Assembly (NCBI RefSeq): GCF_001953745.1
Contig: NZ_LWLN01000001.1
Coordinates: 2,728,001 to 2,792,000 of the forward strand
DNA: 64,000 nucleotides
From: Natrinema saccharevitans
GTDB taxonomy: Archaea; Halobacteriota; Halobacteria; Halobacteriales; Natrialbaceae
Direction of reading: 5' to 3'
Shown here: positions 17,465 to 53,337 of the stretch, piece after piece
Layout: every line of letters begins with the position of its first letter
Numbering within the stretch: position 1 is the stretch's first letter
Program-made: the position numbers and the translations under genes
Notes under the pieces: model-generated
The model's database searches: none
The model's input: only the letters and a program-made list of their open reading frames with translations
What the model was told of the DNA's origin: nothing

Positions 17465-19933
17465 TCACAGCGAGCGCGCGGAGTTACAGACGACGAGCAG
17501 GCTGCTCGCAGCCATCGCGACGGCGGCGAACAGCGGGTTCAACAGGCCGGCGACGGCTAGCGGGATCGCGACCGCGTTGTAGACGAATGCCCAGCCGAGG
17601 TTCTGCCGGATCCGTCGGTGGGTCGCCGTCGCCACGGCGAACGTCTCGCCGACGGCCGTGAGGTCGTCACCGACGATCACCGCGTCGGCCGCGTCCGTCG
17701 CGAGCTGTGTCCCTCCGCCCATCGCGATGCCGACGTCGGCCGCGGCCAGCGCGGGCGCGTCGTTGCTGCCGTCGCCGACCATCGCGACCGTCCCGCGGGC
17801 CCGGAGTCGGTCGACGGTCTCGGCTTTCGCCTCCGGCGGCACGCCCGCGAAGACTTCGTCGACGCCCTCGAGATCGCGGAAGCGCTCGGCCGCCGCTCCC
17901 TCGTCGCCGGTGAGGACGACGACCTCGTGATCCGCCGAGAGGTCGGTCAGGGCCGCCTCGAGGTCCTCGCGGGGCGAGTCTCCGACGACGACGACGCCGT
18001 GGACGTGGTCTTCCCAACCGACGACGACGGGCACGCGGCCCGCCGTTCGCGCGTCCTCTATCCGGGGCTCGAGTGCGTCGGGGATCGCCAGCCCGCGCTC
18101 CCGGCAGAAGTCGGGGTGGCCGACGACGACCCGGTCGCCGTCGACGCGGCCGCTGACGCCGCGGCTCGCCCGCTCGAATCCCTCGACGGCGCTGGCTGTC
18201 GTCGCATCGTCGGGTGCCGCGTCGGCGACGGCGGCCGCGACGGGGTGTTCGGAGAGGGCCTCGACCGCGCCGGCCCGCCGGAGCAGTTCCTCGCGGTCGG
18301 GGCCGTCGTCCCCGGCGTCCCCGGCGACCGTATGGACGGCGTCGACGGTCATCGTCCCGGTCGTGAGCGTCCCCGTCTTGTCGAGGACGACGGTATCGAC
18401 GTCGGGGGCGTCCTCGAAGATCGTCTCCGCGGCGACGACGATCCCCCGTTCGGCGGCGGACTGGATCCCCGCGGCGATGGCCAGCGGCGTCGCCAGCCCC
18501 AGCGCACAGGGACAGGAGACGATGACGACCGTGAGCCCGAGCAACAGCGCCGTCGCCGGGCTCGAGCCGGTCGCCAGCGAGACGGCGACCGTCCCGATGG
18601 CGAGGGCGATCACCAGCGGGACGAAGACGGTCGCGAGCTTGTCCGCGAGCCGCTGGACGCCCGGCCGGGAACTCTGGATCGACCAGAGCAGGGAGACGAG
18701 CCGGTCGAGGGTACTTTCCGCTTCGTCGCCGACCGCGACGACGAGCGGGGCGTCGGTGACGACGGTTCCCCCGCGGACCGGATCGCCCGGCCCCTTCTCG
18801 GCCGGCAGCGACTCGCCGGTGACCAGCGACTCGTCGACCGCGGCCGATCCCTCCGCGATCTCGCCGTCGAGGGGAACCCGCTCGCCGGGACGCACGAGCA
18901 GGCGGTCGCCGGGCTCGACCGCCTCGAGGGGTACCGTCTCGCCGCTCTCGCGGCGGGCCTCGTCGACCTGCCGTTCGGTCAGGTCGGAGAGCAGGCCGGT
19001 CGCGCGGCGCTTGACGATCCGTTCGTAGCGCCCGCCTGCGGTGACGACGAGGACGACGGCGACGGTGACGTCGAAGTAGAGGTGGGCGTTGCCGAGCAGG
19101 ATCGCGACGGCGCTGTAGCTATAGGAGCCGAGTGCCGCCGTCGCCACCAGTAGGTCCATGTTCGGGCTGCCGGCCCGGAGGCTAACGTACGCCCCCCGAA
19201 GGATCGGACCGCCGGTATAGAAGAGAATAATCGAGGTGAACACCCATATGTTCGCCGACAGAAAGGCGCTTTCGTACCCGCCGAAGTCGGCGACCGGCTG
19301 GTAGCCGAAGTACGTCGGGTAGAGAAACAGGACGTACCACATCATGACCATCATGCCGAAGAAACCGCCGAACAAGAGCGGCGCGAGCCCGTCGTCCGAG
19401 CCGCTCGTCTCGCCCGCGGCGGATCGGTCCGACGCGGTGTACCCGTATCCGGAGACGAGTTCCGGGAGGTCGTCGGTATCGAGTCGATCGGGATCGTAGA
19501 CGAGCCGAATCGTATCCGTCGCGTAGCTCGCCGTCGCGCCGCGGACCCCTGGTTCTCGCTCGGCGGTGGTCTCGAGGAACGCCTCACAGGTCGAACAGTG
19601 CATGCCGTCGACCGCGAGATAGGCGTCCTCTCCGTCGAGATCGTCGAGGTCAGGCCCGTCGTCTCCGGAATCGAGACGGGATTGGACCGCCGACTCGTCG
19701 GGTGCGTCGTCGGTCCCGTCGAGCGCGCGAGCGACCTCGAGACAGCCGCGACAGCAAAACGTTCCGTCGACGTCCGGGTCGGTGATCGGCTCCGCCGGCG
19801 TCGGCAGGTCACAGAGGTCGCAGGCGTCGGGGGCCGAGTCGCCGACCGCCGCCGTCCCGTCGGTCGCACTCGAGCCGTCGGTGTCGGCCGGTGACGACAT
19901 CGAACCCCCGGCGGGTGGTGAGTCCGGAGCCAT
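17465..19933 (-). CDS. Copper-translocating P1B-type ATPase (FixI/CcoI-like)
   Basis: An 822-residue heavy-metal P-type ATPase. The N-terminus has the cysteine domain CDLC (38-41) with FCCRGC (59-64) typical of ATPases tied to haem-copper oxidase assembly. A heavy-metal domain with MHCSTC (111-116) follows, then eight predicted membrane segments with the CPC motif (CPCALGLATP), DKTGT phosphorylation site and GDGSNDAPAL hinge. It starts 3 bp from the stop of the SafE-like gene, in an operon divergent from the ba3 oxidase genes. This suggests copper delivery to the oxidase rather than simple detoxification. Confidence 0.9.
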   Translation of the reverse strand: MAPDSPPAGGSMSSPADTDGSSATDGTAAVGDSAPDACDLCDLPTPAEPITDPDVDGTFCCRGCLEVARALDGTDDAPDESAVQSRLDSGDDGPDLDDLDGEDAYLAVDGMHCSTCEAFLETTAEREPGVRGATASYATDTIRLVYDPDRLDTDDLPELVSGYGYTASDRSAAGETSGSDDGLAPLLFGGFFGMMVMMWYVLFLYPTYFGYQPVADFGGYESAFLSANIWVFTSIILFYTGGPILRGAYVSLRAGSPNMDLLVATAALGSYSYSAVAILLGNAHLYFDVTVAVVLVVTAGGRYERIVKRRATGLLSDLTERQVDEARRESGETVPLEAVEPGDRLLVRPGERVPLDGEIAEGSAAVDESLVTGESLPAEKGPGDPVRGGTVVTDAPLVVAVGDEAESTLDRLVSLLWSIQSSRPGVQRLADKLATVFVPLVIALAIGTVAVSLATGSSPATALLLGLTVVIVSCPCALGLATPLAIAAGIQSAAERGIVVAAETIFEDAPDVDTVVLDKTGTLTTGTMTVDAVHTVAGDAGDDGPDREELLRRAGAVEALSEHPVAAAVADAAPDDATTASAVEGFERASRGVSGRVDGDRVVVGHPDFCRERGLAIPDALEPRIEDARTAGRVPVVVGWEDHVHGVVVVGDSPREDLEAALTDLSADHEVVVLTGDEGAAAERFRDLEGVDEVFAGVPPEAKAETVDRLRARGTVAMVGDGSNDAPALAAADVGIAMGGGTQLATDAADAVIVGDDLTAVGETFAVATATHRRIRQNLGWAFVYNAVAIPLAVAGLLNPLFAAVAMAASSLLVVCNSARSL

Positions 19934-40511: not shown

Positions 40512-40559
40512 ACGAAACCAGTAGCAAAGCGATCCACTAGAGGTGGGGAAGCCTCCCTG

Positions 40560-41400
40560 ATCTTGAGTTGATCGTCTTACTCGAGCTAAAACGACCAGCA
40601 AAAGGCGGAGATAGCAAGGGGTAGAAGGCACTTCTGAGGAGGAGATAGAGGGGGAGATGAAAGGGTGAAAATTGCTAACTGTGGATCGTCTTTAATCGAG
40701 CAGCGAAAGAGCAACAACAAGCAGGCAATCAGAGGGGTGCTTGTGGCTGCTCAAGGAGGGGTCATCTCGATCGAGGCAAAACGACCAGGGAAAAGGCAGG
40801 GACGGCAGGGGGATACGACCCAGTCTCGAGCAGCCAGAAGGGGCCCTTGAGGGGGTGGTCATGGCTGGTCGAGCGACTGGTTAGTACGGTCCAGAGGGAG
40901 ACTACCAGTGACGACCAGCAAAAAGGCAGGGACGGCAAGGGGCTACGACCAACTTACAAGCAACAGCAAGGGGGCCTTGGAGGGGGTAGCAGGAGCGGGT
41001 CAGGGGCCCCTTGTTCGATTCGAGCAGCGAAAGAGCAGCAACGACCAGGCAAATAAGGGGGTAGTAGGGGCTGGTCGAGGGGCGGTCACTCTGATCGGGC
41101 CGAAACGACCAGGGAAAAGGCAGGGACGGCAAGGGGGTTCCAGGCAGAGACGACCAGCAAAAACGAGGGGGGTTTCAGGGGTGGGTAGCAGGTGGTCGAG
41201 GAGATAGTTTCCACTCGAGCAGCAAGAGACCAGCGAGACCCAGCGAAAAGCAAGGGACTGCGAGGGGGATCGAGGCAACATCGAGCAGGAATAGAAGGGG
41301 CAAGAAGGAGGCCATCTCACCAGATCGTTTACCGCGAGCAGATCGAAAGCGAATCGACCAGCGAGATCGAGTGCTGGTAGTGGAGCTTTTTGCTGTTACT
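40560..41400. repeat. Purine-rich, strand-biased tract of degenerate repeats
   Basis: About 0.84 kb with a strong purine bias on the plus strand (44 of 60 bases in 41101-41160 are A or G). Imperfect units of the form ACGACCAG-S-RAAARGCAGGGACGGCA-RGGGG begin near 40591, 40781, 40911, 41105 and 41150. A second unit, CGAGCAGCGAAAGAGCA, begins near 40697 and 41020 and is echoed at 41216. G-runs of four or more recur every 20 to 50 bp. Frames on either strand are open only because stops are rare; their products lack haloarchaeal composition. It is probably non-coding: an RNA, a partition or replication site, or a structural region. Confidence 0.7.
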
Positions 41401-43652: not shown

Positions 43653-43679
43653 TGTCCGCGAAGCCTGTCTTCGAGGACA
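43653..43679 (+). repeat. Possible degenerate cassette-border site (site 0)
   Basis: The ends TGTCCGCGAA and GAGGACA resemble the five sites described below, 27 bp long, but the middle differs. It would mark the left border of a single-gene cassette (43793-45238). Weak on its own. Confidence 0.3.
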
Positions 43680-43792
43680 ATTCACCCTCAAATCAGGGTC
43701 GATTCCTGTACTGACATCCACATTCTTCATGGTTTGTTGGGATGAAACTGAACATCGAGGACAGCGATGAGACTCAAGCTGCAGTGTTGCTA

Positions 43793-45238
43793 TCACGTCA
43801 GCGCAACATCGATTTGCTTCGCTTCCTCGATAATCTTCTCGGCATTCTCAACCCACTCTTCTTCCGAATCCTCTGGAAAATACGCGCGATGGAGATACTG
43901 CCCGATCTCCTCTGCTGTGTAGTTCGGGTGCGCCCAATCGGTCAACTGATCGATACCGAATTTCCTCTTGATTACTTCGTTTTCCTCGATCAGAGTTTCC
44001 TTTTTAGTTGAAGGAAGATCAGGCAGAAAGAGATTCAGCGGGAGTACGCTCAACAGTTCGTCTGTGGAGAGATGGGACTCGATGAGTTTCTCTTTGAGAT
44101 TTAGCGTAGCTGCAACCTCGCCAGTGGTCAGCAAACCACGAGCTTCGATACCTCTGAGAATCCTCTCTGATGGCTCCGATTCCTCATACCGCTGTTTGAA
44201 AATAGAACCACCCTCGAATTTTGCTCTGTGAAGGGAAAGGACGCCATCTTCCTGATACTGTTCAAATGGCTCCTTGACAAATCGCTCGTAGAATTCATTG
44301 GTTCCCCAATTCTCGTCACAAACACAGAGTGTGAGACTAGTCATCCCGGCATTCACCATCATCGAACCCGTGTACACGTCATCACCGTTAGCTAGAACAG
44401 CCTCCTTGATGTCCTCGATTATCTTCGTATCATGTTGCATCTCATTGATGAGAATGAAATAATGCGTCTTGTCCGTCAAAACATAGTTGAGATCCTCCTC
44501 GAGTTCGATGAGCGCTTGTTGTATTCCATACTTGCTTAACTTCCCACCATCGTACAGTTGAGACAGTGTACTCCGGTATTCAGCTTCTTCCTCACGTTCT
44601 GAGGTCAACTTAGAGATGATAGTTTCTTTGTGGATATACTCGTGAATGAATCGATCCTTGAAGCACTCACTCTCCATGAATTCCTCATCTGGAGGGGCTA
44701 AATCATACGGTTCAGGTTTTCCACAGAGAAGTTGGTAGGCACCCCATGCAAGCCGAATATCGTCATTTGTTGGACGGACAAGACTGAAGCGGTCCAGACT
44801 CATTTGGAGTTTCTGCGATAACGAGGTTCGTTCATGGCTCTCAAGACGGAAGTCGGATTCTTCTTCGAGATATATGTAGAGGAGTGGAAGGTAGATATCC
44901 TCCTCTTCTTCGATCGCGACTGATTCGGCATAGTTGATGAGGTTCTCAGATCCTAGCGCTTTCAATTCAAAGATTTCGTCCTCAAATTTCGTTTCAAAGG
45001 ATTCAAGGATCTGATTAAATTCTGTAGTTCGTTCTCGGAGTTGGTCTCGATTCTCGGCCGCTTGCCACTGCTGCACCAGAGTATCATACTTCGGGAGGAT
45101 GTTTGCAAGAACGACTAGAATAGCTAGCATCCCAGGCGAGAGGATTGATAGATAGGTTAGGACACTCAAGATCGGGACCAAGACGATATTCAAGAACAGA
45201 GAGACGTAGTTTTGTTTTAGAAATGTGGAAACTCCCAT
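43793..45238 (-). CDS. Unknown protein with N-terminal membrane hairpin (possible cassette gene)
   Basis: A 481-residue protein. Two hydrophobic helices occupy residues about 11-50 (VSLFLNIVLVPILSVLTYLSILSPGMLAILVVLANILP). The remaining 430 residues are soluble, acidic and mostly helical, with no catalytic motif I recognise. Membrane-anchored unknowns of this size are frequent in defence regions. It lies just left of border site 1, perhaps as an older cassette if site 0 is real. Confidence 0.62.
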   Translation of the reverse strand: MGVSTFLKQNYVSLFLNIVLVPILSVLTYLSILSPGMLAILVVLANILPKYDTLVQQWQAAENRDQLRERTTEFNQILESFETKFEDEIFELKALGSENLINYAESVAIEEEEDIYLPLLYIYLEEESDFRLESHERTSLSQKLQMSLDRFSLVRPTNDDIRLAWGAYQLLCGKPEPYDLAPPDEEFMESECFKDRFIHEYIHKETIISKLTSEREEEAEYRSTLSQLYDGGKLSKYGIQQALIELEEDLNYVLTDKTHYFILINEMQHDTKIIEDIKEAVLANGDDVYTGSMMVNAGMTSLTLCVCDENWGTNEFYERFVKEPFEQYQEDGVLSLHRAKFEGGSIFKQRYEESEPSERILRGIEARGLLTTGEVAATLNLKEKLIESHLSTDELLSVLPLNLFLPDLPSTKKETLIEENEVIKRKFGIDQLTDWAHPNYTAEEIGQYLHRAYFPEDSEEEWVENAEKIIEEAKQIDVALT

Positions 45239-45355: not shown

Positions 45356-45383
45356 TGTCCGAGAATTACTGTAGAGTTGGACA
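45356..45383 (+). repeat. Cassette-border site 1
   Basis: 28 bp beginning TGTCCGAGAA and ending GTTGGACA, followed by AAAA. Left arm TGTCCGA; the right arm is one base off its complement. Preceded by GAGTATTG, similar to sites 3 and 5. Confidence 0.7.
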
Positions 45384-45423
45384 AAACCCATAGATTTGAC
45401 GAGGCCTGATTTACACTACTAAC

Positions 45424-46293
45424 TCAGTTCCCGAACTGCGCTCTTGGTGATCGCTCTGTCTCGAGATAGTGCGCACCGATCAGGTCGGTTTCGACCTCGG
45501 TTCGCTTGTGCTTCGCATCCATTCCATCTGGAGTAGCTACTGAAAATAGAGCCTCACTGCCGAATGTTTTCTCGTGTTGTCGTAGTCGCTTTGTGAACGC
45601 TTTCGTCTCGCCGGTATACGCCAGCGGTGGCGCGTCATTTTCGTACCAGATCCGGTAAACACCTGCCTCGGGTAGATCCGGCTCGAGTCGATCTCCAAGC
45701 CGATAGGGGCCACTCCACTCGAGACCCATCCAATCTGACGCAGTCACATCGTCCACGTTTTTCCACGGAACTGGTCCTCGGCCGGGTTCGGTGTTTGGCT
45801 CGGTCTCTCCCTCCTCGAGGGGGCCACCAACGTACCCATCACTTCGATATCCCGACTGTGAGTAGCCGGGGATGATCCGCCCGAAGTTCGCGGTCGGACT
45901 TTTGCCCATTTCGCGACGTGCAATCGCGATGAGGGCTTGCTCGAGCCCCTTCCGGTCCTGATCGTGGGTTGCGAACGACGGCGTCGCGGTCGATACTTCG
46001 AACGCCGGTCCGTCTCGATCACGAACTGCCCAGAGGCACGGTGCAGCTGTATGCGGATCGCGAAACGGCATCTCTTCGGAGTAGACGTTCCGGGCCAGTG
46101 CGCTTACCCGCCCGCGTGTACTCCGGCCGGTTTGACCGATGTACTCGAGGCCGTTACGGTCACGATGGCGAACGCGATAGAGTCCTGGATCAGTCGAGAT
46201 CGCCGTCAACTCATCGTCTGTTGGATCAAGAGATAGCCAGTCACTCCAATTCACCCTCATCCAGTCGTCTGCATACAGATCTCGTTCATTCAT
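45424..46293 (-). CDS. Protein with two GIY-YIG nuclease domains
   Basis: A 289-residue protein with two GIY-YIG units: GLY (37-39) with YIG (51-53), R60/R62 and E118 in LEQALIAIARR; and GVY (211-213) with YTG (226-228), R236/R238 and a following E in EVETDLIGAHYL. Each unit is preceded by a WxxLxW-type strand (WSDWLSL, WMGLEW). GIY-YIG enzymes cut DNA. Two units in one chain could cut both strands. The start at 46293 is used; ATG 46311 would overlap the upstream gene more. Part of cassette 1 with DUF6884 and a PD-(D/E)XK protein. Confidence 0.8.
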   Translation of the reverse strand: MNERDLYADDWMRVNWSDWLSLDPTDDELTAISTDPGLYRVRHRDRNGLEYIGQTGRSTRGRVSALARNVYSEEMPFRDPHTAAPCLWAVRDRDGPAFEVSTATPSFATHDQDRKGLEQALIAIARREMGKSPTANFGRIIPGYSQSGYRSDGYVGGPLEEGETEPNTEPGRGPVPWKNVDDVTASDWMGLEWSGPYRLGDRLEPDLPEAGVYRIWYENDAPPLAYTGETKAFTKRLRQHEKTFGSEALFSVATPDGMDAKHKRTEVETDLIGAHYLETERSPRAQFGN

Positions 46294-46718
46294 GTCTGTT
46301 CGTTGTACCATGCAAGCCGCTCACCTATCATTAATCCCTCAGTCGGAATCTGTATCTGGACGTTGTGTTCTTCGAGGAGGGGAAGCAATTCCTCGTAGTA
46401 CGCTTTCCCCGCATGGAATACGAGGGTGATATCCGATTCGAGCAAACCTGCTGCCTTCAGATCGTCATACACGGTTTGGGACCACTCTCGCTTTCGTGCT
46501 ACTCGAGCGCCAGTGAGAGTCTCGTCGTAGGGCTCGATCAGCGGACCATTCGGTTCAAGAAGATGGTGTTTAGCTGAAAGGACGTACCAGTCGTCGTGGT
46601 GATGTTCACAGTACCGGCGTACTTTGCTGAACAGCGTTGACGGGCTGTACAGCTCACTCGGTGGTGCTGGTTGCTCGCGTTTCGTCTTCGAACAGCTTAC
46701 TAGTCCGATTTCGGTCAT
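46290..46718 (-). CDS. DUF6884-like protein
   Basis: A 142-residue protein with the pattern IGLVSCSKTKR, LYSPSTLFSKVRRYCEHHHDDWYVLSAKHHLLEP and IEPYDETL, which I recognise as the DUF6884 group. The fold is related to the nucleoside-handling domains of archaeosine or queuosine enzymes. Its stop touches the start of the GIY-YIG gene, so the two are coupled. In mobile DNA such proteins may modify or sense modified bases; that role is inference. Confidence 0.68.
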   Translation of the reverse strand: MTEIGLVSCSKTKREQPAPPSELYSPSTLFSKVRRYCEHHHDDWYVLSAKHHLLEPNGPLIEPYDETLTGARVARKREWSQTVYDDLKAAGLLESDITLVFHAGKAYYEELLPLLEEHNVQIQIPTEGLMIGERLAWYNEQT

Positions 46719-46725
46719 TGTTTGA

Positions 46726-47334
46726 TCACTCGACGATCTCCCACGTGATGACAGCGCCTTGCTGATGAACGGGATGCTGTAACTCGTCGAAGTAGGCGAT
46801 ATTCCTCGTTTCTACTTGGAACTCGTACCAGTGATCCACGTCCATACAGAACTTCTCGGCAACTGCCTCGGCAGTCATTTGCTCGTACTCTTCGTCGACT
46901 TTTTCGTAATAGAGGCCGAGTACTCCGCCGTTTGATCCGAACTCTGACTCGTAGAGTTTCTTCGTATCGGTAAGTAGTGACGAGGAACTCCGTTCAGGAA
47001 ACGGCGTGAAGATCCGCGCGAAGCTGTTCGGATCGATGTTTCCATTATCGTACCGGAACCGGAGTAGCTTGGCCTCCACTGGAAGCTGACGCCCGTCGTG
47101 ATCAAGAAAAAGATCGCATCGTCGTGAACCCTCGAGGTACGACACTTCAGTCTCGATAGCTTCTCGAAGCGGGTGGCCCTCAAGCGCCTCGAGAATCATT
47201 TCGATCTGATTCTCTTCCTCGAATGGGCCAATTCCAGGTTTCCATCGGTCGTGTTCAGCATCTGTATCGACATCCGGAATTACAGACGCAAATGAGTTAG
47301 CCAGTTGACCAAGAGGGCCAGGTTTGTTACTCAT
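46726..47334 (-). CDS. PD-(D/E)XK-type nuclease-like protein
   Basis: A 202-residue protein. D74 in RRCDLFLD and E87-A88-K89 in QLPVEAKLL have the spacing of a PD-(D/E)XK active site, and E45/E49 in the first helix (IEMILEAL) fits the usual N-terminal acidic residue. First gene of cassette 1, 7 bp ahead of DUF6884. It could be a restriction-type endonuclease; no methyltransferase lies in the cassette. Site 2 lies about 50 bp upstream of its start. Confidence 0.68.
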   Translation of the reverse strand: MSNKPGPLGQLANSFASVIPDVDTDAEHDRWKPGIGPFEEENQIEMILEALEGHPLREAIETEVSYLEGSRRCDLFLDHDGRQLPVEAKLLRFRYDNGNIDPNSFARIFTPFPERSSSSLLTDTKKLYESEFGSNGGVLGLYYEKVDEEYEQMTAEAVAEKFCMDVDHWYEFQVETRNIAYFDELQHPVHQQGAVITWEIVE

Positions 47335-47384
47335 GATTACCTACTAATGTCCTATCCGTCTACAAATGATTCGTCATTTCAGCC

Positions 47385-47412
47385 TGTCCGAGAATACGAA
47401 CAGAGCCGGATA
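47385..47412 (+). repeat. Cassette-border site 2
   Basis: 28 bp beginning TGTCCGAGAA and ending GCCGGATA; the right arm has two changes from the complement of the left arm. It lies between the start of the PD-(D/E)XK gene and the next cassette. Confidence 0.65.
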
Positions 47413-47538
47413 GACATCATGAGTTATAGCATAGATCATATGTTTAACATAGGTTATATGTCTGAAGCGGCTCACTGAATTTAATACTGGAGAAGATTTT
47501 CCGGGCGAATTAATACGGTCTGTTTGTGAGGGTGAACA

Positions 47539-48111
47539 ATGGACGAGCCGGAATGGATGACCGTTTTACGGATATTTTGGGAAGAGAATCTCGGGTTTGA
47601 ATATTCACCCCACTCAGAGGAGTGGGAGAGATTCATTCCCGACCGTGATGAATTGGAGGATATAAACACATCAGACCATGCCCAAGGCCTCCTAAAATCA
47701 GGTCATCTTGAAGTTGAAGACGTGGATGCCAGCCATGATCCGTCAGTTTCGTTTGATAGTTTGCCTGTAGTCCGGATCTCCGAAAAGGGGATTCAGACGA
47801 TCCGGGAATGGGAAACCATGAAAAAACAAGCGCAATGGGAACAGCAATTACTAGAGACTCAGGAACAGTATGAAGAGAGCCGGCTTAGGAGACAACAGCA
47901 GTTTGAAAAAGAACAGGTTACGAGATCTAACGAAGTGAACGCCGCTGTCGGATATCTCACGATTGGCTTATTGATTGTGACCCTTTCGGATGTCGTCCTA
48001 TCTGTGGATCAATCCTTGGTTCCAATATGGGTTATCATTGGAATCACGCTTTCGGTAGTCTTGGGTTTGATATACAGAATACGGAAATCGGGGCTTCTAA
48101 ATCCAGAATAG
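47539..48111 (+). CDS. Single-gene cassette: HTH-like, coiled-coil, two-helix membrane protein
   Basis: A 190-residue protein. Residues about 1-88 could be a winged-helix-like head (DHAQGLLKSGHLEVEDV, PVVRISEKGIQTIREWETM). Residues 90-130 form a coiled coil (WEQQLLETQEQYEESRLRRQQQFEKEQ). Two membrane helices follow (about 135-152 and 160-178). It is the only gene between sites 2 and 3. It may be a membrane-acting effector or a sensor; unknown. Confidence 0.6.
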   Translation: MDEPEWMTVLRIFWEENLGFEYSPHSEEWERFIPDRDELEDINTSDHAQGLLKSGHLEVEDVDASHDPSVSFDSLPVVRISEKGIQTIREWETMKKQAQWEQQLLETQEQYEESRLRRQQQFEKEQVTRSNEVNAAVGYLTIGLLIVTLSDVVLSVDQSLVPIWVIIGITLSVVLGLIYRIRKSGLLNPE

Positions 48112-48178
48112 TGACCCTACGGCTGGTCTCTGTGGACGTAACGCATTAAATTCGCATATGTACTTAGCGGGAGTTTTG

Positions 48179-48206
48179 TGTCCGAGAACTCGGGGAAAAG
48201 TGGAAG
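48179..48206 (+). repeat. Cassette-border site 3
   Basis: It begins TGTCCGAGAACTCGG. The expected right arm is degraded (GTGGAAG), but an intact TCGGACA occurs at 48232-48238, giving a longer 60-bp palindromic-ended site. It is preceded by GAGTTTTG as in sites 1 and 5. Confidence 0.6.
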
Positions 48207-48312
48207 AGCAGTGCCGATAAAGGGTGCAATTTCGGACATCCTGATCTGGTAAATGCAGACACCGATTTAGTGCTGGTTATTCTACCGGGTCTGAAATGAA
48301 TTCAGGATGCCA

Positions 48313-48333
48313 TGCTGAATAGAGGGCGCAAAT
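48313..48333 (+). repeat. Stem-loop motif copy 1
   Basis: TGCTGAATAGAGGGCGCA onward, matching the motif at 50668 and, on the other strand, at 52536-52563. It lies between site 3 and the TOPRIM gene. Confidence 0.4.
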
Positions 48334-48414
48334 ACTTCACGGTTGGGTAGTTACACGGAGTTGGCGAATTGGTCAGTGCAGATCGAGCAGTTAGCACTGG
48401 ATTGCTTGTGGCAT

Positions 48415-49008
48415 CTACAAATATAACACGTCAATAAGTGCATCCACTTCGTCTGGCTGATCTTTGAAATACTGTTCAGCTTGATATTTTTTCTTGCTGA
48501 ATTCCACCCCATATGACATACCAGTTGCTGTCTCCATATCATTATAGAATGCAATAATTGTGGGTTCATCAAATACATCACCGTTCCCCTCCAACGAACA
48601 TTCTTTAATTACGAAGTCGTCTGTGAATTGCGAATTCCCTTTCGCGGCTAATGAAATTTGGCTACCCCATTCATCCCACAAAGAACTGTTCAGACTGTCT
48701 AACACAGCACTAAAACTACTATCGTCGTCCATGTCGAGCATCAGTACTGAATCTAAGCCTTTCTCTCCAATTGAGGGTCCTTCACGAGCGTATATATCCT
48801 CTAATTCTGACCGCCCTCCTTCACACTTGTATAAATAAGAAATCGAAGTGCCAATTCGGTGCTGACGTATTCGCTGTGTCTGCGTTTCATCACTCTCCTC
48901 GTTATTGAACCGATCACAGTATTCCTCCACACCTGATCGAGTGTGAAGTTGCTCAAGAAAGGCCAAGTCATTGATTCCCTCAGTAAAAACAATCGTATCA
49001 CCCTGCAT
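48415..49008 (-). CDS. TOPRIM-type protein, partner of AAA ATPase (OLD/PARIS-like)
   Basis: A 197-residue protein. E10 in IVFTEGINDLAFLEQL and D92-x-D94 in VLMLDMDDDS are placed like the TOPRIM catalytic residues. It follows the AAA gene directly: the AAA stop TAG is next to this ATG. In OLD-family nucleases and PARIS, an ATPase works with a TOPRIM unit, fused or separate; here they are separate. It is probably the nuclease or toxin arm of a phage-defence pair. Confidence 0.68.
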   Translation of the reverse strand: MQGDTIVFTEGINDLAFLEQLHTRSGVEEYCDRFNNEESDETQTQRIRQHRIGTSISYLYKCEGGRSELEDIYAREGPSIGEKGLDSVLMLDMDDDSSFSAVLDSLNSSLWDEWGSQISLAAKGNSQFTDDFVIKECSLEGNGDVFDEPTIIAFYNDMETATGMSYGVEFSKKKYQAEQYFKDQPDEVDALIDVLYL

Positions 49009-50355
49009 CTATTGGCCTCTAAGATCCAAGTTGAGGTCATTCATATCTTCCTTTGCATCTTCGTAAGATAAGGATCGATTCATAGGTTCTGTTAGTTGGA
49101 AAAGGCAGAATTCATTTTGTAGGTACTCCCCATATTGATTTCGAACTTCTTTGGATATGAATGATTCTAAGAAGTCAGTATTGTGTGTTGTGATAAATAA
49201 TTGTAGTTCTTCTTCCCTCGAAATCTGGATTAAGGTACGTGTTAGTTGTTCTATATACCCTGGATGCATATGCTGTTCCGGTTCTTCGATTAAGAGAACA
49301 TCACCGTCATTAGATTCATCAAACAGTTCCCAGAGAATGCCAACAATTGTTTTGAAACCATCACCCATAAACTCAAATGGGACATCATATGGTGCCCCCT
49401 CCTTATTTTTAAACACAAGGTCAGTGAATGAGAAATCCTCCAGAGAATCTACAAGATCATGTTCCTGAAGGTAATTTTCAACCCTGCTTACTCGAATAGG
49501 ATTATCTTCGTAATTGATCTCCTCTGCTTTTGTAGGAATTTCATTGAGGTAATGAATACCACTGACTGTCGGGAAAGATCCACCAAAAAGCTGTACTCTT
49601 TTAGAGTGCCTGTTTGAAAATACGGAGCTAGTTAGACGGAAGAGGGCTTGAGATTCGGACTCTTCCCCGGGCGTTTCATTGACGATTCGTTCATCATCAA
49701 GTAGAGTCTCAGTAGCACTTTCTACAATCTGACGGATGACCTCTTGATAACTCTTGCTAGCAGAAAATAGATACCGTTGTTGGTCTTCAATCTTGACAGC
49801 CAGAACGTCATCCGAAAGAAGGTCGATTATTTTTTCCTCAGGTATCGACAGCAGCGAATCTGTAAGTACTTCATTTAGAATCTTTGCGAGGGCCATCTCA
49901 TCTGGACGATCGCTCCTACGTGCATCCTGACTAAGTTGCAAATTGCCACGGTGGAGTGGGAATAGCCTTAACTGGGCTGTTTCTTCTGGTATTTCCTGAC
50001 TGATTTTCCTGATTGCTGCTTCATAGACTTCCTCGTCGCTAGCTTGGCGGATTTTTACTGACTGAGTAAGTGGGTTACTTGGGTTCCCCTCCTCATCATA
50101 TTGCTCGAACGAGAGTTGTTCACGCCAATATTCGCCATGTAGCGAAGTCTCCCCTCTTTGTTTGTTGATTACTGCCGTAGCGCGATCTTCAAAGTTCTCT
50201 AAAGTAGTAGGGTCTGATAACACCGCGATAGCTTCCAGAAGGGATGTTTTTCCGGCGTTGTTCCGGCCAGTGATGATGTTTAGTTTACCCGGCTCTATTG
50301 AGGTTGACTGGATACCCTTGAATCCCTTGACATCAAGTTTAGTGAGCCGGACCAT
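49009..50355 (-). CDS. AAA/ABC-type ATPase of the OLD (overcoming lysogenization defect) class
   Basis: A 448-residue SMC-like ATPase. LTKLDVKGFKGIQ opens the fold, Walker A is GRNNAGKTS (30-38), FMGDGFKTIVGIL is the signature region, Walker B is VLLIEEPEQHMHP and the H-loop is FITTHNTDFL. The middle is helical. With the TOPRIM gene it forms a two-gene unit that fills cassette 3 between sites 3 and 4. Comparable pairs block phage by sensing infection and triggering nuclease action; the exact class (split OLD, Gabija-like or PARIS-like) is undecided. Confidence 0.8.
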   Translation of the reverse strand: MVRLTKLDVKGFKGIQSTSIEPGKLNIITGRNNAGKTSLLEAIAVLSDPTTLENFEDRATAVINKQRGETSLHGEYWREQLSFEQYDEEGNPSNPLTQSVKIRQASDEEVYEAAIRKISQEIPEETAQLRLFPLHRGNLQLSQDARRSDRPDEMALAKILNEVLTDSLLSIPEEKIIDLLSDDVLAVKIEDQQRYLFSASKSYQEVIRQIVESATETLLDDERIVNETPGEESESQALFRLTSSVFSNRHSKRVQLFGGSFPTVSGIHYLNEIPTKAEEINYEDNPIRVSRVENYLQEHDLVDSLEDFSFTDLVFKNKEGAPYDVPFEFMGDGFKTIVGILWELFDESNDGDVLLIEEPEQHMHPGYIEQLTRTLIQISREEELQLFITTHNTDFLESFISKEVRNQYGEYLQNEFCLFQLTEPMNRSLSYEDAKEDMNDLNLDLRGQ

Positions 50356-50556
50356 GCGTTATAGGTCGTTTCTCCGGCACACGTTTTATTCCTGTCCCTC
50401 CTTTCACGCTAGGCAAGTTCAATGAGCGGTAGGCTTAATCAATTTGATGCGAAACGAACGTAGCCATCGTACTGAACCCATCCTATGCTTTCAGCACTTG
50501 ACAAGCATCAATACCACTAATCGCGTTCAAGAATTCCATGACAGTCGGTCAAGCAG

Positions 50557-50584
50557 TGTCCGAGAACTCGGAGAAAGTCGGATA
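50557..50584 (+). repeat. Cassette-border site 4
   Basis: 28 bp beginning TGTCCGAGAACTCGGAGAAA and ending GTCGGATA; the right arm is one base from the perfect complement. Confidence 0.7.
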
Positions 50585-50666
50585 GGAGATCGTGAACCAG
50601 CGGTAAGTACAGGCGAAGGCGTTACCGGAGCAGCTGCTTATCTCTCGGATAGGCGTCAGAAACGAC

Positions 50667-50695
50667 CTGCTGAATATAGAGGATGAGTTCAGCAG
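50667..50695 (+). repeat. Stem-loop motif copy 2
   Basis: CTGCTGAA and TTCAGCAG form an 8-bp stem around TATAGAGGATGAG. Same core TGCTGAATA as at 48313 and 52536-52563. Confidence 0.45.
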
Positions 50696-50892
50696 ACCGT
50701 CCCATCGACGATCAAATAGGTGATCCGTCCTTTCGAAGAGACAAAACCTGAGATGTGTATTCTGCCTGGATTGACGACGTAATCCTTGTTATTCGTCAAA
50801 ATATTCGCAGTTCCGTACTTTGTGGAAACACGTGTGTCATAAGATTTAAGATACTTTGGGCGGATTACCGGTTCCTTAGTAATCTTCTTACA
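50689..50892 (-). pseudogene. Possible gene remnant without a start codon
   Basis: A 67-codon open stretch on the minus strand ending in a stop. It reads protein-like (YLKSYDTRVSTKYGTANIL, then NNKDYVVNPGRIHISGF) but has no ATG or GTG in frame after the preceding stop. It could be the C-terminal end of a lost cassette gene. Weak. Confidence 0.25.
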
Positions 50893-50918
50893 CTATGAAT
50901 CCATAGTCTCCTACTAAA

Positions 50919-51584
50919 ATGGTTCAATCAGGTCTAATTATTCCTATAGCTACAGGTAGTGTAGTGGCTACTTTTAGTGTTATTCTAACCATATTTGCAC
51001 AAAATAGAATAAATAAACTAAGATACGCTACAGGAGTTAGAGAAGAAATTTACGAAAATAAGAAAAAAGTCACCGATCTAGGCGTTGACTTGATAGATAA
51101 TATCGTTTCACGTGAGACAGGCATGAATAAGATGAGTCCTCGCTATCGAGATCCAAATATGACATCTACTAGTATAGAGTTCGACACTTCTGCTTATGCT
51201 GCGATGAAAAATAGCGGATTTTTAAACAATTTGGGGGATGACAATAAAATATTATTGAGAGAGCATTATAATAAATTGGAACTGATTAACCAGGAACTCA
51301 ATGATAGGGAAGCAATTCGTGCAAACGGGAAGAGTTGGGATAATAAACGCTATAATGAAATGATTCTGACGCATGAGCGCTCAGCACTCCAGCTATTATT
51401 ACATATTTGTTCTGAAGAATTATTTCTAGAAATACTTGAGGAGACCCGCTTGGGGGAACAAAGATTAATTGGATTCAAAGAAACTAGGGAATTAGATCTG
51501 GAAGATACAGCTAACTTTGATACGGCAATTAATAGTATGGATCAAGAACTTGAAAAAGATTTTCTTAGTCTTTTGATGAGGTGA
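50919..51584 (+). CDS. AT-rich cassette gene with N-terminal membrane helix
   Basis: A 221-residue protein with one membrane helix (about 4-26), basic NRINKLRYATGVREEIYENKKKV after it, and a helical soluble part. Codon use is extremely AT-rich, even beside other cassettes, pointing to a distant donor. Its stop lies inside the 3' end of the convergent gene (20-bp overlap). Unknown; the anchored helical build resembles effector or immunity proteins. Confidence 0.58.
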   Translation: MVQSGLIIPIATGSVVATFSVILTIFAQNRINKLRYATGVREEIYENKKKVTDLGVDLIDNIVSRETGMNKMSPRYRDPNMTSTSIEFDTSAYAAMKNSGFLNNLGDDNKILLREHYNKLELINQELNDREAIRANGKSWDNKRYNEMILTHERSALQLLLHICSEELFLEILEETRLGEQRLIGFKETRELDLEDTANFDTAINSMDQELEKDFLSLLMR

Positions 51585-52425
51585 TCCAGATTTCTTTTCC
51601 CTTGTTAGTGATTAAAAGGCCTGATGAAATTTTTTCTGTAGTTATATTTTTTCCTGTGTCATATTCGGTCAGATATCCGCCTTCAATATTTTTAGGAATT
51701 ATTGGATAGCTATTCGTGCCCGCATATGACCCCGCAAGTTCTACACTACCAAATCCAAGTAAGGTAACATAGAGCTGTACTGGGCCTTCTGGATCAAACT
51801 CGGATAGATATGACAAACCAGCTGATGAGAAATTAATGACATCATCTCGGAGGCGTTCAATAGGAAACCTCCAATCTGAGTACGTAGAATCTACTAATTC
51901 AATCCATCCGTGTCGAGATATACAGATGTATTCCATATTTTCAAATAGATTACTTGTTTTAATAAAATACTTTTCACCGCTATTTGTGATCGTAGATGTT
52001 GGATTTTGAATTACCATAGAATCATTTGGTAATTCAGAGACGGTATTGACAAGGGGTTGGTCTTCTTTTGAGCAAAATAAATGGAAAGCAACAACCGGTT
52101 GTTTATCAATTTCAACCAAATTAGTCGATGAACTTTGTAGAAACTCTAATCTGCTTTTGTAGATCTCGTGAGGTTTACGAGAGACTTGGACTTGAGTAAA
52201 CCCCCCAGCATTTTCAACTTTTTTTCTGTATTTTTGAGTGTAATCTAATATATTAGTATTCTCTGATGGTGATTCTTTTTGATAAAGATCTCCGTCACCA
52301 TTAGTAGTCCAGACATTGATTGACCAATGTGTGCCTCCTTTATCAACTTTGATGTATCCATTATTGTGTAGTAGATGAGCCTCTTGATAGTTTTCTCGTA
52401 TTATCCAATTCTCAGATTCTCTCAT
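51565..52425 (-). CDS. AT-rich cassette gene, unknown soluble protein
   Basis: A 286-residue protein rich in beta-strand-like segments and aromatic residues (WIIRENYQEAHLLHNNGYIKVDKGGTHWSINVW, GPVQLYVTLLGFGSVELAGSYAG). It resembles bacterial conflict proteins in style but has no motif I can name. It converges with and overlaps the 3' end of the membrane-helix gene by 20 bp, so the two may be a sense-antisense or toxin-immunity pair. Strongly AT-rich. Confidence 0.57.
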   Translation of the reverse strand: MRESENWIIRENYQEAHLLHNNGYIKVDKGGTHWSINVWTTNGDGDLYQKESPSENTNILDYTQKYRKKVENAGGFTQVQVSRKPHEIYKSRLEFLQSSSTNLVEIDKQPVVAFHLFCSKEDQPLVNTVSELPNDSMVIQNPTSTITNSGEKYFIKTSNLFENMEYICISRHGWIELVDSTYSDWRFPIERLRDDVINFSSAGLSYLSEFDPEGPVQLYVTLLGFGSVELAGSYAGTNSYPIIPKNIEGGYLTEYDTGKNITTEKISSGLLITNKGKEIWITSSKD

Positions 52426-52535
52426 GTTTTTCAGTATAGGTCGTTCTACTCAGATGAATATGGTAGATACATCAGTATCACTTTATCGCCTACACGTTAC
52501 TGTCTGAAGAAGCAATCTCGTATTTCAAGCTAATC

Positions 52536-52563
52536 GTGCTATATGCGCTCTGTATTCAGCACG
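52536..52563 (-). repeat. Stem-loop motif copy 3 (inverted)
   Basis: CGTGCT and AGCACG form the stem; read on the minus strand the loop begins TGCTGAATACAGAGCGCATA. It lies about 75 bp before border site 5, in opposite orientation to the two other copies. Confidence 0.45.
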
Positions 52564-52636
52564 ACCCTACAAACCCCGTTCGAACCTGATAGAACGCTTG
52601 CTGGTCAATAAGCATACGTAGTTATCACAAGAGTTG

Positions 52637-52664
52637 TGTCCGAGAAGTCAGACAGAGTCGGACA
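52637..52664 (+). repeat. Cassette-border site 5 (best copy)
   Basis: 28 bp with perfect 7-bp arms TGTCCGA and TCGGACA around 14 bp, followed by AAAA. It lies 86 bp upstream of the recombinase start. Confidence 0.75.
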
Positions 52665-52722: not shown

Positions 52723-52748
52723 TGTCCGGAATGCAGGCAACCCGGACG
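52723..52748. other. attI-like dyad at the recombinase start
   Basis: TTGTCCGG, 12 bp, CCCGGACG: an inverted repeat related to the cassette-border arms and ending just before the recombinase ATG. It could be the primary insertion site or an operator for the gene. Confidence 0.4.
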
Positions 52749-52749
52749 C

Positions 52750-53337
52750 ATGAATCTCCAACAGCACGAGAACCGCGACGACATGAAGGTCTGGCTTAGC
52801 CAGAACGAAGTAGAACAATTTCTCGAGGCGTCCGACGATACCCAGCAGCGGATCGCGTTCGCACTCGGGGCGCGGTGCGGCCTCCGCTCACACGAAGTCC
52901 TCGATATTGCGCCGGAGGATATCGTCGATACTGACGCCGGAACGATGCTCCGTGTCTGGCACGGCAAGGGCGATAAGTTCCGAGAGACGCCGGTCCCGCG
53001 CGATCTTGCGACGACCATCCGCACGGTCGACGACGTGCGCGACGCGCCAACCAGCTCGTCACTCGTCGAGATTACAAGTACGCGGTCACTCCGGCGGTGG
53101 GTTCGATCGACTGCCGACCAGTTGCATGAGGAGACAGGCGATGCTGGATGGGATCACCTCGGCTTCCACGATCTCCGCCGGACCTGGGCGACTGCACTCG
53201 CTTCCGATGATGTTGATCCGCTTTTAGTCTGTGACTGGGGCGGATGGAACGATCTCGAAACCTTCCTGGAGCATTATCGAGGTAGCTACAGCCCCGAAGC
53301 ACAGCAACGTGAACGCGGCAAAGTCAGCTGGCTATAA
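52750..53337 (+). CDS. Minimal tyrosine recombinase (cassette recombinase candidate)
   Basis: A 195-residue catalytic domain with all expected residues: R46 in GARCGLRSHEV, K73/K76 in HGKGDKF, H140 and R143 in FHDLRRTWAT, W163 in CDWGGW and nucleophile Y176 in LEHYRG. The usual N-terminal core-binding domain is missing or very short, so site recognition may need a partner or differ from standard integrases. It starts just after a border-like dyad and is transcribed away from the cassette array. It is not adjacent to the island att sites. Confidence 0.85.
   Translation: MNLQQHENRDDMKVWLSQNEVEQFLEASDDTQQRIAFALGARCGLRSHEVLDIAPEDIVDTDAGTMLRVWHGKGDKFRETPVPRDLATTIRTVDDVRDAPTSSSLVEITSTRSLRRWVRSTADQLHEETGDAGWDHLGFHDLRRTWATALASDDVDPLLVCDWGGWNDLETFLEHYRGSYSPEAQQRERGKVSWL

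Follow-up and report, generated by a model that had tools for sequence, protein, structure and literature searches.

The three-gene unit at 45356-47412, which encodes a tandem GIY-YIG protein, a DUF6884 protein and a PD-(D/E)XK nuclease candidate, is very probably one unit of an integron-like array run by a single-domain tyrosine recombinase encoded at the end of that array. The stretch of DNA analysed (the window) comprises 64,000 nt of the haloarchaeal chromosome of Natrinema saccharevitans (GCF_001953745.1; NZ_LWLN01000001.1, positions 2,728,001-2,792,000, + strand), and all coordinates below refer to it unless stated otherwise. The array is read from sequence, namely from the sites, their common orientation, the recombinase gene, recurrence in other genomes, and homology breakpoints that fall inside the sites. 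The initial annotation had described a candidate defence cassette bounded exactly by two border sites. The cassette and its borders were found as described (real sites lie at 45356-45383 and 47385-47412), but the other three of the five sites had been overlooked, as had the recombinase gene that ends the row. The features are as follows.

43653-43679, + strand: second-subfamily site; after it come about 120 bp of its attI region and the beginning of a broken integrase
43793-45238, - strand: 481-aa gene left of site 1
45356-45383, + strand: cassette site 1, TGTCCGAGAATTACTGTAGAGTTGGACA; bounds the reported cassette on the left
45424-46311, - strand: 295-aa tandem GIY-YIG protein; both repeats keep their motif residues in relatives
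46290-46718, - strand: DUF6884 protein, 142 aa (PADLOC PDC-M57A); predicted fold like that of E. coli YaaA
46726-47334, - strand: PD-(D/E)XK nuclease candidate, 202 aa; D74, E87 and K89 invariant in six relatives
47385-47412, + strand: cassette site 2, TGTCCGAGAATACGAACAGAGCCGGATA; bounds the reported cassette on the right
47539-48111, + strand: gene of cassette 2; 190-aa protein, two membrane segments predicted
48179-48206, + strand: cassette site 3; degenerate right arm, 15/21 scored positions
48415-50355, - strand: cassette 3; 448-aa AAA/OLD-like ATPase (49009-50355) and 197-aa partner (48415-49008)
50557-50584, + strand: cassette site 4; bears the outer right arm GCGGTAAGTACAG
50919-52425: cassette 4; 221-aa protein (+ strand, 50919-51584) and 286-aa protein (- strand, 51565-52425)
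52637-52664, + strand: attI-like core site, TGTCCGAGAAGTCAGACAGAGTCGGACA; starts 113 bp before the recombinase ATG (85-bp gap)
52723-52747, + strand: second imperfect inverted repeat TGTCCGG...CCGGAC; same arms, abutting the recombinase ATG
52750-53337, + strand: 195-aa single-domain tyrosine recombinase; active-site residues invariant

The border site is 28 bp long and reads TGTCCGAGAA-N7-AGAGTCGGACA, the arms forming an imperfect inverted repeat. The ten bases of TGTCCGAGAA occur five times in the window (0.27 expected), all on the + strand, from 45356 to 52637. Since five sites in the same orientation end at the recombinase gene, the three-gene unit was taken as one of four cassettes. From their sequences, both genes of cassette 4 appear to be of unrecognised function, and the cargo is otherwise the membrane protein and the AAA/OLD-like ATPase with its partner. 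A partial cassette-end outer arm lies before site 1, so the 481-aa gene may be a further cassette that has lost its own left site. Within the same genome, five plus three site matches were obtained (reversed control, 0); further sites lie at other places, and one cluster of them was found with no recombinase beside it.

The 195-aa protein matched Pfam Phage_integrase (1.4e-18), and its R46, K73, H140, R143, W163-W166 and Y176, which are invariant among 38 sequences, correspond to the active site of tyrosine recombinases. It is distantly related to XerA; the XerA alignment started at model position 86 of 263, and the alignments with the IntI models likewise started from the catalytic domain, which indicates that the core-binding (SAM-like) domain is missing. 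This domain is usual in tyrosine recombinases, but not universal; because it is absent here, activity of the recombinase on the 28-bp sites is an assumption of the analysis. The active-site Lys and His are 67 residues apart, which, with the Lys-His spacing of IntI as the yardstick, leaves no room for the IntI-specific insertion. The genome has three copies of the recombinase gene at different places (95-100% identical) and one more at 47% identity. Judging from its position, the TGTCCGG...CCGGAC repeat at the start codon may be bound by the recombinase and may thereby limit expression of its own gene.

The recombinase family was found in 96 of the 292 Halobacteria genomes, representing 37 of the 77 genera. 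In a phylum-wide sample, all matches fell within the order of the window's genome, and the matches in a scan of 84,980 species genomes were almost all haloarchaeal, one record being labelled as a Thermoplasmata MAG. Recombinases of this family were rare in phage records (best match 33%, Haloferax phage LSV-48N). In most of the 63 loci compared, a 28-bp site with inverted arms lies about 85 bp upstream of the recombinase gene (about 113 bp from its start to the ATG), the position that an attI site has beside the integrase gene of an integron. The letters of the site vary with the recombinase subfamily: close relatives have the AGAA type, some relatives at about 60% identity have the GGTTCT type, and TGTCCGnGAAnCCnnTCTTCGnGGACA is the site of the 47% subfamily. 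The strict site pattern gave 52 matches in 22 genomes (reversed control, 0), and the scan of viral contigs gave 13 matches, with one site apiece.

When the 16 kb upstream of each recombinase gene were searched with the locus's own site, about one locus in four had one to six extra sites, which nearly all pointed the same way, and several attI-like sites had no array within 16 kb. Over all loci, 26 same-strand sites lay upstream of the attI-like site and none lay downstream of the recombinase gene; in one locus, nine sites stand in a row in a single direction. Such site-bounded cassettes in one site orientation are what is expected of an integron. The 47 cassettes so delimited are short (median 754 bp) and AT-rich, with a GC content of 0.47 (0.59 for the loci), and 36 of them contain a single ORF (75 aa or longer).

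Cassette boundaries were compared between genomes (one genome per species). The ends of 430 homologous segments outside the recombinase module were compared with the sites, and six ends fell on a site in both partners; the shuffled control with shifted sites gave a mean of 0.033 and a maximum of 2 in 1000 trials. A 0.73-kb cassette is 96% identical in two genomes and has different neighbours on both sides. Its homology stops right after TGTCCGAGAA of the right-hand site, and another pair breaks at the opposite edge of the centre. Breaks at either edge of the 7-bp centre are expected if the centre is the region of strand exchange and varies between partners. In a minority of cassette ends, the core is additionally flanked by an outer inverted repeat, with CTGTACTTACCGC 8 nt to its left and GCGGTAAGTACAG 15 nt to its right; at these offsets the mean match exceeds that at other offsets by about 4.9 standard deviations. 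At one site both outer arms are perfect, and the single-stranded DNA fold had a z score of -4.9 (one sequence).

The mechanism that we propose is as follows. The recombinase would bind the inverted arms of the 28-bp site and would cut around the 7-bp centre, where strands would be exchanged. Two sites of like orientation would allow the cassette between them to be excised, presumably as a circular intermediate, and free cassettes would be recombined with the attI-like site that lies 85 bp ahead of the recombinase gene, so that the outcome would be an array of independently expressed accessory genes. In view of the outer inverted repeats, and because different 7-bp centres are tolerated, the cassette sites may also act in part as folded single strands.

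As for the cargo, the three genes lie on the same strand (-) exactly between two copies of the site, with a 7-bp gap between the PD-(D/E)XK candidate and the DUF6884 gene and a 22-bp overlap between the latter and the GIY-YIG gene, which agrees in genes, strand and borders with the coupled operon initially described. None of the three encodes a methyltransferase, as had also been pointed out, so that a classical restriction-modification system does not fit. The 142-aa protein is certainly a member of DUF6884 by its profile scores (Pfam, 6.4e-41, 140 bits versus the cut-off of 30; PADLOC PDC-M57A, 1.7e-32). In its CxxxK and LSAxxG motifs, C9, K13 and L47-S48 are conserved, and the final Gly of LSAxxG is His here. 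The model of this protein resembled YaaA (Foldseek probability 0.99, TM 0.60, E-value 0.019). The 295-aa protein has two GIY-YIG repeats, of which Pfam picks up the second only (6.4e-6); repeat 1 (GLY/YIG, R68 and E124) and repeat 2 (GVY/YTG-YIG, R242 and E274) are both conserved in relatives. The 202-aa protein matched no family model and gave no significant match in the fold search, and its assignment draws on the invariant D74...E87-x-K89 motif and on a compatible order of predicted strands and helices (medium-confidence model, pLDDT 77). Profiles of the GIY-YIG and PD-(D/E)XK families matched no solved structure, and the 202-aa protein could not be aligned with HamA, the comparison showing no similarity.

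Neighbourhoods of the GIY-YIG gene (family present in 44 of the 292 Halobacteria genomes) were then compared at 42 haloarchaeal loci. DUF6884, either intact or as a 3' tail, immediately precedes GIY-YIG in 14 of them, a PD-(D/E)XK relative lies within about 2.5 kb in six, and the full trio is together in three (L012, L143 and L162); hamA-hamB directly follow the DUF6884-GIY-YIG pair in three others, and most of the 42 have no recognised third partner. The pair is recurrent, and the full trio is uncommon. The composition of the three-gene cassette also changes between genomes: Natrinema mahii (G107) has the PD-(D/E)XK gene (93%) at the same site but only the start of DUF6884, and in another genome (G118) GIY-YIG is accompanied only by the tail of DUF6884 and lies beside a different gene. 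On plasmids of Natrinema J7-2 and AArc-T1-2 and at two further loci, the pair lies directly before DUF1837 and helicase genes, and those of AArc-T1-2 score as the Hachiman genes HamA and HamB. In Halalkalicoccus, the pair comes after a DUF262-HNH gene that scores as a type IV restriction family. Note that the likeness to Hachiman and to the PDC-M57 candidate defence families extends to the PDC-M57A match and to the pair directly before hamA-hamB in several haloarchaea, whereas the window cassette has neither HamA nor HamB, which are present beside relatives elsewhere, and is therefore not Hachiman itself.

Separately, DUF6884 and GIY-YIG genes were observed immediately 5' of hamA-hamB at five loci (L304, L305, L145, L147 and L148), and a haloarchaeal four-gene extended Hachiman operon is possible from this gene order. 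The pair was also observed at 17800-19010 of a locus in G202 (L054), downstream of the recombinase gene on the site-free side. Relatives of the tandem GIY-YIG protein (34%) occur on cyanobacterial plasmids (H25-H27; Tolypothrix and Microchaete).

Other cassettes encode Thoeris ThsB, an AspBHI-type modification-dependent endonuclease, AAA/OLD-like proteins and candidate defence families, and also CBS, HIT and methyltransferase proteins, a lipoprotein and numerous proteins of unknown function. Recognisable defence genes are absent from most cassettes of such arrays. Judged by this content, the array is, like an integron, a general accessory-gene platform rather than a dedicated defence island. 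For the three genes themselves, a defence role is plausible. Hachiman senses DNA damage (PMC12278908), and a DUF6884 family member was reported by Pfam's authors among DNA-lesion interactors (PMC11701544). Together with the YaaA-like model, these reports favour a sensor of lesions or altered bases with interchangeable nucleases. We lean slightly towards an anti-mobile-element operon, in which DUF6884 would recognise altered or damaged DNA and the PD-(D/E)XK and GIY-YIG proteins would cut it.

That the trio forms a stand-alone defence system, with DUF6884 marking or reading a modified base on behalf of the nucleases, is a reading to which we give tentative credence; it is compatible with the cassette array. 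The pairing of DUF6884 with GIY-YIG recurs, also directly upstream of Hachiman genes, and the motif residues are conserved in both GIY-YIG repeats and in D74, E87 and K89, so that neither of the findings named at first as fatal to the idea (rare co-occurrence and nuclease residues that are not conserved) was clearly obtained. What counts against it is that the third partner varies, being PD-(D/E)XK in 6 of the 42 loci, Hachiman genes in three and none recognised in most, and that the cassettes of such arrays mostly have no recognisable defence function. Overall, the initial annotation is supported in part: its cassette reading holds more strongly than was proposed, the borders being recombination-type sites of an array.

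Returning to the array, modular gene exchange at 28-bp two-arm sites is also a property of the pdif modules of Acinetobacter plasmids. Xer/dif-like modules whose sites are used in trans by a housekeeping Xer are very improbable here. The two arms with a short centre and the distant relation of the recombinase to XerA would suit them, but the near-uniform orientation of the sites, the rows that end with an attI-like site at a dedicated recombinase gene in cis, the correspondence between site letters and recombinase subfamily, and the several recombinase copies per genome do not. Archaeal single-domain tyrosine recombinases have been described as HSTV2-like, fam30-07, fam30-17 and fam30-28 in one survey, where the HSTV2 family is restricted to Halobacteria (PMC8371274). 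They resemble the present recombinase in consisting of the Phage_integrase domain alone; the available text of that survey treats them as integrases of mobile elements and mentions neither cassette arrays nor site families (PMC8371274).

A genuine IntI/attC integron, either acquired from bacteria or of the kind in archaeal MAGs, was weighed against the array of the single-domain recombinase and found most improbable. The layout is the same in that a recombinase gene lies beside an attI-like site, the tandem and mostly one-gene cassettes lie between sites that share an orientation, some clusters have no recombinase, and the cargo includes accessory and defence genes; a weak similarity to IntI4 and to the integron integrase profile TIGR02249 was also detected. 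However, this profile gave 37 bits versus the cut-off of 265, with residues 3-95 alone matching. Since the recombinase has neither the core-binding domain nor the IntI insertion, it falls outside the integron integrases despite the integron-like layout. The sites also appear to differ: attC sites are defined by structure, as single-strand hairpins with R/L boxes, whereas those of the haloarchaeal array are sequence-conserved 28-bp palindromic cores, apparently of the double-strand type. Cassette genes do not share the one orientation expected of integrons, whose cassette genes are mostly promoterless (24 ORFs face the attI-like site and 28 face the other way), and the family is almost confined to Halobacteria, whereas the archaeal integrons of Ghaly et al. 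2022 are IntI/attC systems in MAGs of nine phyla (PMC9668308).

In the literature searched (open journals and a few preprints), archaeal integrons are described only as IntI/attC systems from metagenome-assembled genomes (PMC9668308), and a search there for haloarchaeal integrons or cassettes found no description of a system like the present one. We consider it reasonably probable, from the sequences compared, that this is an independently evolved haloarchaeal integron with sites unrelated to IntI/attC and at least two site-specificity subfamilies, which captures single-gene cassettes, antiviral systems among them, and spreads them throughout the class. If this is true, the integron principle has evolved more than once, and a second build of it exists in culturable, genetically tractable haloarchaea. 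Capture of cassettes by integrons is a major route of gene acquisition in bacteria. Searching for the 28-bp sites would then be a simple way to catalogue mobile accessory genes, several antiviral and many of unknown function, and the minimal 195-residue recombinase would be available for study. The array also explains the border sites reported at first and would give the three-gene operon a means of spread.

Operators or promoter elements of a defence regulon in an ordinary defence island are an equally improbable explanation of the 28-bp repeats as the IntI/attC integron, since the inverted-repeat form, the related repeat directly before the recombinase start codon and the several defence-like genes in the vicinity are set against sites at both ends of genes in either orientation and against between-genome homology that stops inside the sites, which operators do not predict.

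Some further observations were made on the recombinase loci and on the window. The conserved module consists exactly of the site, 85 bp and the ORF, and homology ends sharply at the recombinase stop codon; thus loci L047-L051, L009, L011 and L012 have recombinases about 95% identical and no common sequence past the stop codon. A repeat of the 3' end of the recombinase gene that might explain this break was sought elsewhere in the loci, with no consistent match. A related recombinase is encoded on a plasmid of 18 kb in Haloarcula marina (NZ_CP100406.1; 18,001 bp), and the chromosome of G227 has two copies with the same score at 2857387 and 2875238, 17.85 kb apart; the plasmid copy and the paired chromosomal copies suggest an integrating episome. 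In the window, 43653-43780 holds a perfect second-subfamily site, the attI region that goes with it and the initial codons of a broken integrase, and appears from this content to be a fossil of a second array type adjoining the first. The Rfam search of the region gave tRNA only. The stretch at 40530-41330 is non-coding and purine-rich, with recurring words such as GACCAGCAAAAAGGCAGGGACGGCAAGGGG and with a strong GC and AT skew.
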